DNA of 64,000 nt from NCBI GenBank assembly GCA_016193285.1, contig JACPSL010000008.1, forward strand, positions 62,001 to 126,000, given 5' to 3'. The notes beneath the pieces are model-generated. The model was not told the origin of the DNA. It made no database searches and saw only the letters and a list, made by a program, of their open reading frames with translations. Origin of the DNA: Candidatus Melainabacteria bacterium. Its GTDB lineage: Bacteria; Cyanobacteriota; Vampirovibrionia; 2-02-FULL-35-15. Shown here one piece after another: positions 30,467 to 38,171 of this stretch (position 1 is the stretch's first letter; each line of letters starts with the position of its first letter). The position numbers were made by a program, and so were the translations under genes.

Positions 30467-33226
30467 TTAACTTCCTAGCTTCCTAACTTTCTCAAATGCG
30501 GTTAATATGTTTTCTTGGGTTAGGACTTGTGGAGCAAGTTGCACAATTGCATCTGTAAATTGTTCATCAGTTAAGTTTAACTCTTGGACACGAATTGCTA
30601 ATTTTTTTGCATCTGGTGCTGGGGTACCTATTTTTTTTACCTTAAGTCCATAAACAAGAGAATTAATCGTTCCTTCCATTAAACCACTTACCCTAGGATC
30701 AAAGTGATATCTAATTACACCAGGACGTTTTTTTAATTCACTTAACATGTCCTCTTGAGTAACTTGTCCTTGAGTGGATTTTACATAGTCTTCAAATACC
30801 TTTTCAACAGTTGCAGGTGTATAGTTCATTACTGTTTTGCCCGCCTCAGCATAATTTACTTGACCTTTAATTCTTCTAGATTTTACATATGGCTCTAAGA
30901 AGCGTTTTGCAAATAATGTGCCTTGCTCTTCTGTAAAAAGTTTATGGAATATAAATATCTTTTTATCTGATCTTCCTTCCCTCATTACACCGTAATCTAC
31001 ATATTTATACAACTGCTCCTCAATTGAACCACTATATCCTTTATCATCAATTGAGCTAACATCAATTTCTTCAGTTAGTGGTAGATTAGTTGTCATAATA
31101 AGAACAACTTTTGTTGATAAGTGGGATTCAGTTCCTTTTGGTTCCATTTGAGAGAGGAATGCATCAGTTGGTATTTCATTTAGGTTAGCACCTTTTCTGG
31201 GAGGAAGAATCTTATTAACTTCATCCATTAATAAAACACATGGTGCAGTCTTGTTTACTGTATGAATAAACTCACTAACAGTTTGAGGCTTTTCTCCATG
31301 TTTAATTTTTACATCGCCTTTCTTAACGGTAACCATACCAGGAGTTAGCAAAACTAGTGGAAGTGCAAGTTGGTTTGCAATAGTTTCAGCAAGAGAAGAT
31401 TTACCAGTTCCAGGTGGTCCTGAAAGTAAAAAAGTTCTATGCGTTGCACTGTTACTATCATTCCCGTAGAGACTTCTTACAGCAGGTTTCAGCACAAGTC
31501 CTTTTAAACCATGCGCATCTACGTATCCTTCTTCATCATTAAAGCAACGGGTTAATTTGTGGTTCAAAGCTAATGCTTGAGCTGGTACAGAATCTAGGCC
31601 TAAGTGTGGCTCTGTAAAAAACTCATATCCTCTTGGAGTAGCTCTAAAGAAAATAGTGTCCTGGACAATTTTTCTACATGATTGTAAAACACGGTTCTTA
31701 TTTTCTTGGTTTACAAACTCCCTATATGGACGTGGTGGATCATTACCAATTGCAATCCTTTTTTCCATCAGTTGATTTAAATATTTAAAGAACAGTAGCC
31801 CTTTCTCTGAATTATTTTGAGTTAATTTCTGTCCTAGTACTTCAGTATCAAGTTTTAAAAGATCTAATAAACTCAAGAGTGCTTCATTAAGGTCTTCTTT
31901 TGTTTTGTAGCTATCAAACTCAGATACTACTTTTAGCAAGTTTTTTCTTTTATCTTCTGGTAAACCACCTAGAACTTCCATCTGGTCGTTATCAAATGAA
32001 GTGAAAAAGCAATTTCTTGCTTCTTCGTTTGACATTGGGGTTATATCATTAGCCCATTTTTTGAACACTACAAATCTCTTTTCATTTAACCGTTGTTGAG
32101 CTTCTAACTTTTCAGCTTCCTCGTTCCATTGTGCTTTTGGGATTTCAGAAGAAAGCTCAAGCACACCGCTTATTGTAGTAGGCACCATTATATGGTAATT
32201 AGGTGAAGTTTCGCCTAATTCATTTTCGTTTTTAAATGCTTCTACAAGCTTTTCTCTAAACTTCTCAACTTCATCTCTGAACCTGCGTGGAACTGAAACC
32301 AATGGCGTCCTTAGATAAAGCGGATCAATTCCATACAATCCTTCTTTTGTTTCTTGCTCTTCAATTGTTCCTTCTTCTACTTTTTTTGCTCTTTCAAGAA
32401 ACTCTTTCATTACAGAGTAGATTTCCATCCTGTATGTTGGTGTCTTTAAATCTGGTACTGGAATCTTGAATCCTCTTATAGGTAATTTCCAGTTTAAAGT
32501 TATTATTCTTCTAATACAGTCAAGTGAAGATTTTTCACCATATATAAGGGGAACTTCATGAGGTTTTTCAAGATACGGAATAAAAATATCTTTTACATCA
32601 TTAGGATCAACTACAGTATCACTTCTTAGATAAAGAGCCTCTAATGCTAATAATAATCCTCTAGCTGTGCGCTTATGTTCTAGGAACTCATCAAGGCTTG
32701 CCTGAGAATGTTGTGTACTGCCAAGCAACTGAATAACTGCCCTTTGTACATCATTCATAACATTTTTTGGTTTATTAAAGTCAGCCTCAAGTATAGCTTT
32801 TGCTACACGCCGTGGAGTTCTTAAGTTCACTGACAGGAGATCATCATTAAAGTATTCTTCCCCTCCTAAAGATTTAACAGCTTTTGCAATACACCCATCA
32901 ATCTCAGATCTTGCTTGTCTAGCTGCAATATTCTTTATAAGCCATTTTGCACCTGCCCAAGCAGGAGGTATTAAAGCAAAAACATACTGCCAAGCTGCAG
33001 CCAGATTTTTTATATCAGCTTCACTTTTTAGCTTTTGGATTAATTCTATTTTTTGCCTAAGATGAGGTTCATAAGCCACTTGATCTTGATTTTCTGCAAC
33101 TCCTATTGAATGTGCACTTGAACTTTCTTCTTCAGGAATAACTATAAGCTTTGCTTCTTTTACAATTATGTTTCCGGGCCAGGTCGGTGGTGTTTGTGTA
33201 ATACTGTTTACTGTAGTCATAGTCAT
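30467..33226 (-). CDS. Large AAA+ ATPase of unknown function (copy 1)
   Basis: A 919-residue cytosolic protein. About 600 residues of unrecognised helical sequence precede a classical AAA+ module. This has Walker A GPPGTGKSS (about residue 605), Walker B VLLMDEVNK (about 665; Asn where AAA proteins usually have Asp/Glu after DE), sensor-1-like VVLIMTTN, and a C-terminal helical lid. Similar length and ATPase position in the protein at 35406-38171 mark them as paralogues on opposite strands around a shared locus. The N-terminal part probably binds the client. The family is not one I can name; MoxR, ClpX and Lon were considered and do not fit. Confidence 0.85.
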   Translation of the reverse strand: MTMTTVNSITQTPPTWPGNIIVKEAKLIVIPEEESSSAHSIGVAENQDQVAYEPHLRQKIELIQKLKSEADIKNLAAAWQYVFALIPPAWAGAKWLIKNIAARQARSEIDGCIAKAVKSLGGEEYFNDDLLSVNLRTPRRVAKAILEADFNKPKNVMNDVQRAVIQLLGSTQHSQASLDEFLEHKRTARGLLLALEALYLRSDTVVDPNDVKDIFIPYLEKPHEVPLIYGEKSSLDCIRRIITLNWKLPIRGFKIPVPDLKTPTYRMEIYSVMKEFLERAKKVEEGTIEEQETKEGLYGIDPLYLRTPLVSVPRRFRDEVEKFREKLVEAFKNENELGETSPNYHIMVPTTISGVLELSSEIPKAQWNEEAEKLEAQQRLNEKRFVVFKKWANDITPMSNEEARNCFFTSFDNDQMEVLGGLPEDKRKNLLKVVSEFDSYKTKEDLNEALLSLLDLLKLDTEVLGQKLTQNNSEKGLLFFKYLNQLMEKRIAIGNDPPRPYREFVNQENKNRVLQSCRKIVQDTIFFRATPRGYEFFTEPHLGLDSVPAQALALNHKLTRCFNDEEGYVDAHGLKGLVLKPAVRSLYGNDSNSATHRTFLLSGPPGTGKSSLAETIANQLALPLVLLTPGMVTVKKGDVKIKHGEKPQTVSEFIHTVNKTAPCVLLMDEVNKILPPRKGANLNEIPTDAFLSQMEPKGTESHLSTKVVLIMTTNLPLTEEIDVSSIDDKGYSGSIEEQLYKYVDYGVMREGRSDKKIFIFHKLFTEEQGTLFAKRFLEPYVKSRRIKGQVNYAEAGKTVMNYTPATVEKVFEDYVKSTQGQVTQEDMLSELKKRPGVIRYHFDPRVSGLMEGTINSLVYGLKVKKIGTPAPDAKKLAIRVQELNLTDEQFTDAIVQLAPQVLTQENILTAFEKVRKLGS

Positions 33227-33290
33227 CTTTTATTTTTTAGAAAAAGTATACAGTCTTTTCTAGGTATCCTCAAGTTTCTTTAATTTGCCT

Positions 33291-33418
33291 TTTTGGTTAA
33301 GGACTGTCAAGTACCCAAAAGAATTTCAAAAACACTAAAGCTTGCTGATAATTTAGTTTTTTAACCCAGATTAAAATAAATATTTAGTCCGGTTAAGAGT
33401 AAGCTGGCTTCTTAACCT
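33291..33418. promoter_or_regulatory. Divergent intergenic region with GGTTAAG/CTTAACC motifs
   Basis: GGTTAAG at about 33295 and 33391, TTTAACCC at 33360 and CTTAACCT at 33411, between the divergent AAA+ and HEAT-like genes. They match the motifs upstream of the 492-aa gene. The rest of the 260-base gap holds nothing recognisable. Confidence 0.35.
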
Positions 33419-33486
33419 AAGTCGTTTAGTATCAAATTAGATAATTTAACATTTCTATTTAAGTAAATTAATATTGTAGATAAACA

Positions 33487-34479
33487 ATGCCACCACCAGT
33501 AAATGATGTAACAAAAGTAGTGAGCTTTCCATTTAGGCCAGTTGGCTTCAAGCCTCAGCAAGGTAAACAAGTTACCACAGATGATATCAAAGATTGGGCA
33601 AGAAAAGAAGATCGTGGTATCATTCAATGCCTACCTCATTTTGCTGTTTGGACAGCTGTAGGAACAATAGCTAGTGCATTAATAGGCTTTGTAGGTATCA
33701 AAAAGGATAGCAGACTTTGTAAATGGCTTGGTGGAATCTTGGGAATAGTTGGAATTGCAAGCAGCGGGTTTGGGGTATATCTTGCAAGACTTTGCCAAAC
33801 TGCCAAAACGGAAAAGAAATCAGAAGAAGTACATGAAAAGTTTTTCTTTGAAACACCTATTACAAATTCTTTGAAAAAAATATCAAAAGAAGATGAAACT
33901 AATAGAGATGAACTTAGAAGAAAATTAATTGGCGAGCACATGAAAGAAAGAGATAAACTTAAAGCTCTATTTGAAAAGTTAAAGACTGGGAATGATGATG
34001 AAGGGTTACGTAAGGAAGCCGAGTGCTGTCTCAATATTATTTCTGAACTAGAAAAAGAAATCAATGATGCAATTACTCGTTTGAAAGATAAAGATGTTAA
34101 TAAGGAACTTAGATTGAAAGCAAGAGACATTTTGAAAAAAGCTTTATATGAACAAAAAGATCAGAAAGCAATGAAAGCATTAGCTGAATGTGCAAAGGAC
34201 AAAAGTGACGATCCAGACATTAGATCAGAAGCATTAATGGCCTTGCCTGAAGAAAGTCATGTTAATTTATTGTTTGATGTACTTACAGACCCAAATGATG
34301 ATCAGGGGATTCGTCATATGGCAGCAACTCTCTTGCGGAATCTTATAGAAAGAGACAATACAGAAGTTATTAATAGGTGCAATAGTCTGGTTAATAGCAA
34401 TGACCAAGAAGTTAAAGATTTTGCAGAAAGTGTAAATGAAAGGATAGAGGAAAAAAAGAGAGATTCGAATAAAAGTTAA
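33487..34479 (+). CDS. Membrane-anchored HEAT-like repeat protein
   Basis: A 330-residue protein. Two hydrophobic helices at about residues 52-70 and 80-102 (AVWTAVGTIASALIGFVG, LGGILGIVGIASSGFGVYLA) form an N-terminal hairpin anchor. The remainder is a charged alpha solenoid with repeated LRxEAxxALP-like units (for example DDPDIRSEALMALP, DDQGIRHMAATLLRNLI) typical of HEAT/PBS-lyase repeats. It is divergent from the first AAA+ gene and leads a co-directional run that ends with the second AAA+ gene, so it may be the membrane scaffold for these ATPases. That role is inference. Confidence 0.72.
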   Translation: MPPPVNDVTKVVSFPFRPVGFKPQQGKQVTTDDIKDWARKEDRGIIQCLPHFAVWTAVGTIASALIGFVGIKKDSRLCKWLGGILGIVGIASSGFGVYLARLCQTAKTEKKSEEVHEKFFFETPITNSLKKISKEDETNRDELRRKLIGEHMKERDKLKALFEKLKTGNDDEGLRKEAECCLNIISELEKEINDAITRLKDKDVNKELRLKARDILKKALYEQKDQKAMKALAECAKDKSDDPDIRSEALMALPEESHVNLLFDVLTDPNDDQGIRHMAATLLRNLIERDNTEVINRCNSLVNSNDQEVKDFAESVNERIEEKKRDSNKS

Positions 34480-34487
34480 TTGCTTTA

Positions 34488-35165
34488 ATGAAGTTAGCTA
34501 TCCCAAAAATCACAGTACTGCCATCAAGTGGGCTTTTAAGAGGAAGGTGTTCAAAGGCTATCTTTATTACAAAACACAATTTACAAATTAATCAAGATGT
34601 TGTTGAAACTGAGACACAACAAGTTACTAGACCAACCGCAAAAAATTGGTTATTTCTTGTTGAAGGACACAAAAAATATTCTTGTGCTGAGAACGTGTTT
34701 TTAGATAGTTTAATAGAGCACTTTGAAATTAGAGCCGAAGATCCAATTGAACCTCCATTTACCGCAAATGTTGCTGAGTCAGCTTCAATTGAAAAACTGC
34801 TTGCTGCACTTTCAATTTTAGTTATGGACTATTTAGATTTTATGGCAGATAGCGATATAGAACAAATGAGAGATGAACAGCTTGAAGCATTTTTTGATCT
34901 GAATGTTAATGCAGTAGCCAAGACTTTTGAGGTAAGTCCAAAAAGATTAAGAAAAGAGTTTGATAAGCTCAAGTGGAATAATGAACATTTACTTGGTGAA
35001 CAAATTCTTAATCTTTCAGAAAAAAGAAGGAAACTAATAGATGAATCAAACTCTTTAAGTAAAACTAAGTTAGTTGGAATACTAAATGAAAATGCCCAAC
35101 CTAATTTATTTGTAATGTCTGGCATTGAGCATGCTACAATTTTTAGTCAAGAAAAAGATATGTAA
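34488..35165 (+). CDS. Unknown protein with duplicated C-terminal module (first copy)
   Basis: A 225-residue soluble protein, 8 bases downstream of the HEAT-like gene. No family recognised. Its last about 70 residues (RKEFDKLKW ... LSEKRRKLIDESN ... FVMSGIEHATIF) are repeated in the next, overlapping open frame, which starts before this gene's stop. The repeat offset is 214 bases, not a multiple of three, which explains the frame change. Confidence 0.65.
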   Translation: MKLAIPKITVLPSSGLLRGRCSKAIFITKHNLQINQDVVETETQQVTRPTAKNWLFLVEGHKKYSCAENVFLDSLIEHFEIRAEDPIEPPFTANVAESASIEKLLAALSILVMDYLDFMADSDIEQMRDEQLEAFFDLNVNAVAKTFEVSPKRLRKEFDKLKWNNEHLLGEQILNLSEKRRKLIDESNSLSKTKLVGILNENAQPNLFVMSGIEHATIFSQEKDM

Positions 35166-35409
35166 GAAAGAATTCAATAAATTAAAATGGGCAGATGAAG
35201 AAAAGCTTGCTAAGCAGCTCTTGCAGCTCTCAGAAAAGAGAAAAAAGCTTATTAGTCAGTCTAATTTACAAAGCAAAGAAAGATTGGTTAAGATATTAGT
35301 TTCCAATAAAGAGCATAAGTTGTTTATAATGTCAGATATTAAGCATGAGCCTGTATTTGCAGTCAAAGAGGTTTGTAAAACTGAGAAACTGGTGGAGCAA
35401 GAAAAATGA
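35131..35409 (+). CDS. Second copy of the duplicated module, other frame
   Basis: A 92-residue frame beginning at ATG 35131 (or TTG 35125), overlapping the previous gene by about 35 bases. Its KKEFNKLKW ... LSEKRKKLISQSN ... FIMSDIKHEPVF aligns along its length with the C-terminus of the previous protein, at roughly half identity. It could be expressed by re-initiation, as a separate gene, or by frameshifting to give a longer fused protein. Its stop overlaps the next ATG (ATGA), so it is translationally linked to the second AAA+ gene. The frame is kept open although diverged, which argues for selection. Confidence 0.6.
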   Translation: MLQFLVKKKICKKEFNKLKWADEEKLAKQLLQLSEKRKKLISQSNLQSKERLVKILVSNKEHKLFIMSDIKHEPVFAVKEVCKTEKLVEQEK

Positions 35410-38171
35410 GAATTGAAAAAGCACCCAACCCTCATCAATTAAAGATTTTCAGTTCTCCACTTGGCAGCGAGATTAAAAAATCTCAAAACTCTGATACCCT
35501 CAAAAACTCTAATGATGTTGTTGATGCTCCCAAAGAGCCATCATTAAGGAATCAAATTTTATTAATCCAAAGAGCCAAGCTAAATCTTGGTCTTGAACCT
35601 TTAGCAGCTAGCAACATAGGGTACTATATGCAGCGCCTGAATAATCATAACTCCGCTGTTTTTGGAAGGAACTCATCATTAGCTTCAATACTTAATAATC
35701 TGTTACTTGAATTAGACAAAGAAAAACCCATTAGTGATGAAGAATGTAAAAAACTGCGGAACTTTGGAAGAGATGCTCAGATTGTCAAAAATTGGCTCAA
35801 GAATTCTATTTTGAAAATTGCATGTGATAGCTCTTATACGATGGGTGCCTTCAATGTCTCTCCAACTATTGAAACCCGAGAGATCGCTGCAAAAGTTTTT
35901 GTAAGATTTCTGGAGTGGATGGGCGGCGCACTAAGTGATATAAATAGAGAAATTGGTTCATTATTAGAATCACCATATTTGTTAGTTCGGCGGCAAGGAG
36001 CTTATGCTGCTCTTAAGACTTACAGGCTTGGTAAGAGATATTTTTGGTACCCTTGTCATTTAGCAAGTGTTCTAGAAAAAGAGAAAGATGATCTTTCACG
36101 GATTATTATGGCTGGAGCAATAGCTTTGGCAGATCCAAAATGTATTTTGACTAAACTCTACAATAATAACGATTTCTCCAGACTAATAGAACTTGTTTTA
36201 TCAGATCCTAACCTAGAAGTAAGAGCTACTCTTTTAGCCGGACTAAGAGACTTGACAGAAGCAGAAAATAAAGCAGGCAGATATTTTAAAAACTTTTCAG
36301 AAGTTCCAGAGCTAACTCCTACAGATAGAGCTGAGTGTTTTAGATATTCTGCAAGATGTGTTGAAGAGTTTATCGATAAGAGACCTCTTAGTGAAGATGA
36401 AGCTATGATATTAAACAATTCTTTTGGTGTTATTGCTCCTTTACTAAAAGGAATAGGAGATGAAAGTATCATAGAAGGTCATGTGCTTGAAGAATATGTA
36501 AGGTTAAAAAATAGGATTGCCCAACTTGATTTATTTAATTTGGTACAAGTCGCTGCTAAGCACAAATTTAAAGATGATAGCGGAGAAGATATAGGATTGT
36601 GGGAGAATGTTTCACCTGTTTTTTATTGGATGTTATTAAGAAGAAGTGAATCTACTAAAAAACCTATGGTAGATTACTTTAGGTTGAAAAGAAAACTTTC
36701 TGAAAAAAAGGAGAATGCCTCAGATTCTCATGCAGTGGAAGTATTTAACAAAGCCTCAAGCAAGATAAATGATGCTATTGAGTGGTCCTTAACTAAAACT
36801 AAGTCAGAGGAGATAAAGTGGGGCGATTATACAGAATTTAATTTAGCAGCAGGTGATCTTTTTGAACTTTTGGGAACATCCGAAAATTTTTGCAAGCTTG
36901 CGGTTTTAAACTTAATTGATGACTTAAGAAAAAATGGGTTAGAGCTAAGTGGTGGTGGAAGGTTTCTACTTCATAAAGCCCTTGATGATTCAAATAGACT
37001 TAAGCTAAAAGATACTTTAAAGTCACTTATTTACTCATCAGAAATGAGCGGAGAAATAGTTGCAAGCCCACCAGCAACAACTGCTCAAGGCAAAGCTTTA
37101 CTTGTCTATAGAGAGATGGCACCATCATTTAAGGACTACTTTGGAATGGTTGATTTAAAAGAAAGAGCTTTGGGAATAGCATTAAGTTCTATAAATAGCA
37201 ATAGATTTTCAAAAGGCCTTTTGTTTTCAGGTGCCCCAGGTACTGGTAAATCACATTTCGGCGAAGTTCTTGCTAATGAATTAGCGTTACCTTATGAACT
37301 ATTATCCGATGGAATGATTACGGAAACTGAGGAAGAACAGCTCTTAATAGTAGAAAGTGCTGAAAGGAAGTACACCCTTGATCAGTACATTGAAAAACTT
37401 GCAAGGCATGGCAGATGTGTTGTATTAGTTGATGAAATTAACAAGATGGCAAACCCCGGTAATCAAGTTAGAGCAAGTAGATTTTTAGTTTTATTTCAAA
37501 AATTACAACAAGCTAATCTACATCCAATATTAATTGCAACAACTAACTTCCCAATCCTAGATAACGTGAATGAATTCCCTATAGATGAAAAGGGTTGCTC
37601 AAGGAAGCTTGACAAGCTTTTAAAAGAGTTTGTCCACCCGGATGTATTTGGTTTCTTTGAACCATGTTATTTATTTCATAAGAAATTAGTAGGCTATGGA
37701 TTTACAAAAGGTTACTTAAAGCATTTAACTCAGAAAGGGGAAATCACTGGTGATATAGATTTTGAAGCTGTCGGAGATCTTGCAAAAGGACTAAGACCAC
37801 TGCAAATAATAAATACAATTTCAGAAATTCCAGAGCACCCGTTTCCTTCTCAAGCTATTAAAAGTGAGCTGAGAAAGTTAAAACTAGACACTAATGAAAT
37901 TAAGCAACTACAAAACTTAATAGCAGGTACAATTAACATACTTAAACTTTCTATTGATGGCAAATTAGATCTTTCTGAGTTAGCTCTTGCAGCTGAAGAT
38001 ATTCCTACTAAATCAATAGCTAAGATTTTAAAAAGTGTACCTACTCCGTTAACACAAACTTCTTTGCTTGAACTTTTTAGAAACTATGACAGAAGACAAA
38101 TAATTCCTCAAAAAGGAGGGATGGGCATCGTAGTTAAAAGACTAAAAGACTTGTGGTCTTGGTTTAAGTAA
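35406..38171 (+). CDS. Large AAA+ ATPase of unknown function (copy 2)
   Basis: A 921-residue paralogue of the protein at 30467-33226. The N-terminal about 590 residues include HEAT-like helical pairs (LSRIIMAGAIALADPKCIL, FSRLIELVLSDPNLEVRATLLAGLRDL). The AAA+ module has Walker A GAPGTGKSH (about residue 610), Walker B VVLVDEINKM (about 672), ILIATTNF as sensor 1 and a C-terminal lid (LAKGLRPLQIINTISEIP). It overlaps the preceding frame by ATGA, tying the two into one operon with the HEAT-like membrane protein. The two ATPases could form a hetero-oligomer. Function unknown. Confidence 0.85.
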   Translation: MRIEKAPNPHQLKIFSSPLGSEIKKSQNSDTLKNSNDVVDAPKEPSLRNQILLIQRAKLNLGLEPLAASNIGYYMQRLNNHNSAVFGRNSSLASILNNLLLELDKEKPISDEECKKLRNFGRDAQIVKNWLKNSILKIACDSSYTMGAFNVSPTIETREIAAKVFVRFLEWMGGALSDINREIGSLLESPYLLVRRQGAYAALKTYRLGKRYFWYPCHLASVLEKEKDDLSRIIMAGAIALADPKCILTKLYNNNDFSRLIELVLSDPNLEVRATLLAGLRDLTEAENKAGRYFKNFSEVPELTPTDRAECFRYSARCVEEFIDKRPLSEDEAMILNNSFGVIAPLLKGIGDESIIEGHVLEEYVRLKNRIAQLDLFNLVQVAAKHKFKDDSGEDIGLWENVSPVFYWMLLRRSESTKKPMVDYFRLKRKLSEKKENASDSHAVEVFNKASSKINDAIEWSLTKTKSEEIKWGDYTEFNLAAGDLFELLGTSENFCKLAVLNLIDDLRKNGLELSGGGRFLLHKALDDSNRLKLKDTLKSLIYSSEMSGEIVASPPATTAQGKALLVYREMAPSFKDYFGMVDLKERALGIALSSINSNRFSKGLLFSGAPGTGKSHFGEVLANELALPYELLSDGMITETEEEQLLIVESAERKYTLDQYIEKLARHGRCVVLVDEINKMANPGNQVRASRFLVLFQKLQQANLHPILIATTNFPILDNVNEFPIDEKGCSRKLDKLLKEFVHPDVFGFFEPCYLFHKKLVGYGFTKGYLKHLTQKGEITGDIDFEAVGDLAKGLRPLQIINTISEIPEHPFPSQAIKSELRKLKLDTNEIKQLQNLIAGTINILKLSIDGKLDLSELALAAEDIPTKSIAKILKSVPTPLTQTSLLELFRNYDRRQIIPQKGGMGIVVKRLKDLWSWFK

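Follow-up and report, generated by a model that had tools for sequence, protein, structure and literature searches.

In the stretch of DNA analysed here (the window, 64,000 nucleotides; G000:C8:62001-126000 of a genome of 1.81 Mb in 39 contigs), a gene for a 225-aa protein is directly followed by a diverged copy of its own last third, which lies in another reading frame. We tentatively interpret this second copy (copy 2) as an old duplicate of the 3' part of the gene, which survives as a small gene for a truncated paralogue of about 92 aa, a reading to which we give not quite an even chance. The features on which the analysis rests are as follows.

30467..33226, minus strand: divergent AAA+ protein, 919 aa, outer gene of a conserved block
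33487..34479, plus strand: HEAT-repeat protein, 330 aa, upstream, first gene of the conserved block
34488..35165, plus strand: 225-aa ORF containing copy 1, with orthologues of 221-223 aa in three relatives
34953..35144, plus strand: copy 1 of the repeat, codons 156-219 (a helix pair and the last strand by prediction)
35131..35409, plus strand: copy-2 frame, 92 aa from ATG (TTG at 35125 also possible), +1 relative to copy 1
35145..35166, plus strand: A-rich join between the native end of copy 1 and copy 2
35167..35358, plus strand: copy 2 of the unit, 64 codons
35406..35409, plus strand: ATGA, in which the copy-2 stop overlaps the AAA+ start
35406..38171, plus strand: AAA+ protein, 921 aa, downstream, AAA domain near the C-terminus

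The repeat places codons 156-219 of the 225-aa frame (34953-35144) a second time at 35167-35358, at an offset of 214 bases. At this offset the nucleotide identity was 59% over 34953-35140, while the 29 remaining offsets between 200 and 229 gave 23-34%. The 64 codons of the aligned core could be aligned without gaps, with 35 of 64 residues identical; over an alternative span (query residues 147-221) the protein identity between the copies was 51%. The local protein score of copy 1 against copy 2 was 183, and the maximum reached by 2000 shuffles was 66. Both the identities and the shuffle tests put the homology of copy 2 to part of the adjacent gene beyond chance, which bears out the initial annotation that the C-terminal 70 or so residues recur in the next frame at offset 214 and about half identity. 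The join lies somewhere in 35145-35166, and several small gaps are needed there to align it with the internal start of the unit. Therefore, 214 is the present-day offset, and the original period may have been different.

The copy-2 frame is open from 35116 to its stop at 35407-35409, giving 97 codons between stops, and overlaps the 225-aa ORF by 35 bases. Among 20,000 mononucleotide shuffles of 35166-35406 (241 bases), a fraction of only 0.0005 kept an open frame, and the other five frames of this segment contain 12, 3, 5, 1 and 9 stops. The ATG at 35131 sits within the tail of copy 1, 35 bases ahead of the end of the 225-aa ORF, and the copy-2 stop overlaps the AAA+ start in the ATGA at 35406-35409; a coupled short gene beginning at this ATG is therefore possible. 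The second frame is thus, as had been described, open, overlapping with the first and joined to the AAA+ gene by ATGA. No clear ribosome-binding site was found ahead of 35131; since this genome uses such sites weakly (they are weak or missing in many genes of the window), this carries little weight. The overlap of the copy-2 stop with the next start is what copy 2 shares with translationally coupled genes of the ATGA type, whereas its long upstream overlap of 35 bases, with a start inside the tail of the parent, and the lack of a strong ribosome-binding site set it apart from them.

The 225-aa protein was found in 4 of the 97 genomes in our search of relatives, its own genome included, and the named relatives carrying a gene of this type are MAGs of Candidatus Melainabacteria; the window itself belongs to one Melainabacteria family. 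A profile search of the class gave matches in 5 of 382 genomes. One of these, in G318 (E 8.7e-4), is a 223-aa ORF that, with the locus inspected by eye, has none of the family motifs, and was set aside as a chance match. Three relatives (G006, G002 and G005) carry the same block, namely an opposite-strand AAA+ gene followed by the HEAT, 225-type (221-223 aa) and AAA+ genes, the last of which runs off the contig in G005. All three have a single module, with the next gene beginning 4-24 bases later. A fourth homologue is a paralogue in G002 (L010 4707-7250, 847 aa), in which a 225-type module is joined to a long stretch resembling HEAT repeats by eye. This fused gene shares a 14-kb stretch with an acetolactate synthase gene, and the block of the window adjoins an acetolactate synthase gene too. 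The initial annotation had suggested comparing homologues for one-module, two-module or fused forms: the one-module form was found in 3/3 syntenic orthologues and a HEAT-fused form in the fourth homologue, and the two-module form was absent from the three orthologues (0/3) and from the fused paralogue (0/1). A second copy is thus missing from all four of these homologues, which lie outside the window.

These comparisons bear on two readings in which the two frames form one protein. The first, proposed in the initial annotation, is that a +1 ribosomal frameshift in the overlap produces a two-module protein. Although the two frames do overlap and both modules are under constraint, we recognised no slippery site of a well-known kind in our own reading of the overlap, and the RNA of the overlap folds more weakly than its shuffles (z +1.2 to +2.0; of 200 shuffles, 196, 199 and 181 folded equally well or better). 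The second frame occurs in 0/3 orthologues, so there is no conserved arrangement either. With no two-module relative, no unusual RNA folding and no recognised slippery site, this proposal gained no support and is very improbable. The second reading is a base error in the assembly, for example at the A-rich join, such that the true gene would be one longer ORF with two C-terminal modules. The two frames, both open across the overlap, and the A-rich composition would suit such an error, but the two-module form is missing in the three orthologues and the fused paralogue, the C-terminus of copy 1 resembles those of the orthologues with a stop within a few codons of theirs, and the longest A run at the join is five bases. 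We regard an assembly error as improbable, too.

The divergence of the two copies indicates that the repeat is not recent. Over the 64 columns, copy 2 has 42 residues identical to G002, 35 to copy 1, 33 to G006, 32 to G005 and 27 to the fused paralogue, and copy 1 has 42 identical to G002 and 38 to G006. Between the copies, synonymous sites are saturated and dN is about 0.36-0.39. Among shared residues, the copies use identical codons at 14/33, and the other pairs of the four closest sequences at 18/40 to 19/36. From the saturated synonymous sites and this codon sharing, the separation of the copies can be estimated as about that of genes from different genera; by these measures, the copies are shown to be old.

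The changes specific to copy 2 were counted by codon position, using four of the six sequences (G005 and the fused paralogue were left out). They fell on 4/35, 4/43 and 12/23 sites at positions 1, 2 and 3, an excess at third positions of 12/23 against 8/78 at first and second positions together (Fisher p 5e-5). The orthologue in G006 showed a similar pattern (5/36, 5/44 and 8/19). Since its own changes favour third positions, copy 2 was protein-coding through most of its separate history. We also simulated neutral change. At the full observed distance, the frame remained free of stops in 6% of simulations starting from G002 and in 3% of those starting from copy 1, and the observed residue identity exceeded the simulated 95% range in both cases (42 against 20-30, and 35 against 14-25). 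At half the distance, corresponding to one branch, 14-21% of the frames remained open, so a stop-free frame alone is weak evidence, and we take the codon-position pattern as the stronger evidence. Of the 18 residues along this stretch that do not vary among five homologues, copy 2 further retains 16; the two family-invariant residues that it lacks are P205 and G212 of the MSGxxH motif. The initial annotation had inferred selection on both copies from divergence without stops. For copy 2, selection on the protein sequence is supported (12/23 against 8/78, and dN far below the saturated dS); on the other hand, selection on the fragment as such is not demonstrated, because the constraint measures would fit equally if copy 2 had sat in a full-length gene until recently.

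This last point leads to the main rival explanation, according to which copy 2 is a leftover of recombination or deletion: the C-terminal part of another gene of the 225 type that had diverged, or of a resident allele from before a replacement, which was cut recently and is still open merely because there has been too little time for decay. We consider this explanation somewhat less than likely, though close behind the preferred one. We used four datasets to compare eight topologies. In the best trees, copy 2 falls outside the grouping of copy 1 with G006, as such a leftover would have it, and trees in which the copies are sisters were 2.0-8.6 log units worse across the four datasets. Against this, the AU test rejected one of the three sister topologies, and only on both protein alignments, whereas the other two were nowhere rejected (p 0.077-0.21). 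Since these tests mostly fail to reject sister copies, three origins are all possible: a duplication that preceded the split from G006 and was later lost in that lineage, an exchange by recombination with a diverged relative, and a tandem duplication that has changed fast. The tandem duplication of the initial annotation, taken as a simple event within this lineage, is thus a possible origin and no more: the gene is followed by a repeat of its own last third, and the copies are not joined in the best trees, even if their joining is mostly unrejected.

Upstream of the join, the window tracks the gene end of G006 (ACAATTTTTA.TCAA), and downstream it tracks the inside of the gene. In a direct reading, both partners share AAAAAGAT, which the join has in common with the internal start of the unit; this suits a short-homology event. 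The HEAT protein of the window is 41.5% identical to that of G006 and 24-27.5% to the three others compared, whereas the AAA+ protein is 34% identical to both G006 and G002 and shows no preference. This mosaic-like contrast would favour a leftover, but synonymous divergence does not point to a younger HEAT gene (identical codons at 72/127 against 40/69). We did not accept a mosaic origin as a result, given that sliding identities did not reveal a sharp breakpoint and that synonymous sites are saturated throughout, and kept it as a rival.

Truncated pieces with open frames occur elsewhere. In the same genome, the start of contig C10 (L051 158-4914) carries an AAA+ gene that lacks its N-terminal part and is open, and contig C25 (L052 3427-5503) carries an open C-terminal AAA+ piece of 198 aa; between them, these two loci have truncated, open genes of both the AAA+ and the HEAT-like kind. 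Because these pieces are open yet truncated, an open fragment alone is no proof of function, which again suits a leftover. In G006, a second block on contig C24 (L024 13785-15332) has an AAA+ gene that is missing its first part. After this truncated gene, the last 79 bases of the contig match the interior of the 225 gene on C43 exactly. The 79-base piece, which was left out of the trees, begins very nearly where copy 2 does (SPKGLKKEF) and might be taken as a similar leftover; however, assembly graphs can also produce an overlap that stops exactly at a contig end, and therefore we did not count it as a proven second event. A leftover of a second gene is also disfavoured by the absence of a second full-length 225 gene from the window's own genome, where the search gave 2 matches, both at this locus. 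A search of the same genome for contig-edge repeats of copy 2 gave 41 matches, none of them convincing (best E 0.018, the self-match aside).

We also examined what the parent protein may be. No Pfam family reaches its cut-off in the 225-aa protein. Its conserved H30, E59 and G212xxH215 served as a lead to the TraB/PrgY/Tiki superfamily: the likeness lies in a conserved H in the first strand region, an E after the second strand, and a GxxH after the last long helix and strand, and the difference in the lack of a Pfam match or a significant profile match. A TraB-type match (PF01963) was found in none of the 5/5 family members at E <= 1, and a PDB profile search gave no support for membership. 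Our own comparison of the parent with a TraB profile, which used 14 of 15 TraB-like loci (L064 gave no ORF with the motif, and the ORF picked from L067 may be in the wrong frame), gave 14.9 at the expected C-terminal place, with 3 of 50 column-shuffled controls scoring higher. In two AlphaFold models of the parent, the N-terminal third is for the most part below pLDDT 50, and Foldseek searches with them gave a best E of 0.1, none below 0.001. Membership in TraB/Tiki is thus unsupported by Pfam, the PDB profile search, our own profile comparison and the fold searches.

As for the surrounding genes, a role in defence or in phages was considered and rejected: PADLOC and PHROGs gave the two AAA+ proteins only generic AAA matches, the HEAT protein had two weak matches in PHROGs (E above 0.06), and the 225-aa protein and copy 2 had no match in either at E <= 0.1. 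A scan of genome contigs gave no confirmed match for the AAA+ protein, and, in the parts of the literature that our search returned, no paper combining Melainabacteria, AAA+ ATPase and HEAT repeat was found. The four-gene block AAA+ / HEAT / 225-aa / AAA+ (30467-38171 in the window; L007, L008, L009 and L024 elsewhere) is present in 4 of 11 genomes from a single Melainabacteria family and evolves fast. Between the window, G006 and G002, the AAA+ proteins of the block are 34-38% identical (34-36% for the downstream one), and the acetolactate synthase of the window is 81-83% identical to those of G006 and G002. The block thus outpaces a housekeeping gene and may merit more attention than the duplication itself.

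Taken together, these results lead us to favour a small, coupled gene for a truncated paralogue slightly over debris left by recombination. In this preferred reading, the operon would run HEAT - 225 - copy 2 - AAA+. Translation of copy 2 would start at the ATG at 35131 inside the tail of copy 1 and would be coupled to copy 1 upstream and, through the ATGA, to the AAA+ gene. The putative product would retain the helix pair of the parent's C-terminal third and may bind the partners of the parent (the AAA+ or HEAT proteins), as a partial partner or a competitor. It is unlikely to perform the task of the whole 225-aa protein alone, since the N-terminal two thirds are missing. Among the points against a functional fragment, besides these missing two thirds and the loss of P205 and G212, are that it begins at a helix (H151-159 in the model) amid a predicted helical region and that it is absent from 3/3 syntenic orthologues. 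The bolder version, that a diverged half-module, translated in another frame from a start within the tail of its parent, has been kept for roughly the span of a genus-level divergence as a dedicated partner or decoy tuning the AAA+/HEAT complex of this block, seems unlikely to us.

In kind, the duplication is ordinary. As in other partial (3') gene duplications, a copy of the last third lies directly behind the gene, diverged, open and without the N-terminal part; copy 2 differs in using another frame, in overlapping the end of its parent and abutting the next gene by ATGA, and in a coding constraint that persists after synonymous saturation. Since none of the relatives that we examined has copy 2, we regard it as a probable lineage-specific gene fragment and not as a novel type of system. 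Translation of copy 2 would make it a modest example of part of a gene being put to new use as an operon gene in its own right. If it is not translated, it would illustrate that a recombination leftover can mimic a gene in its coding statistics.
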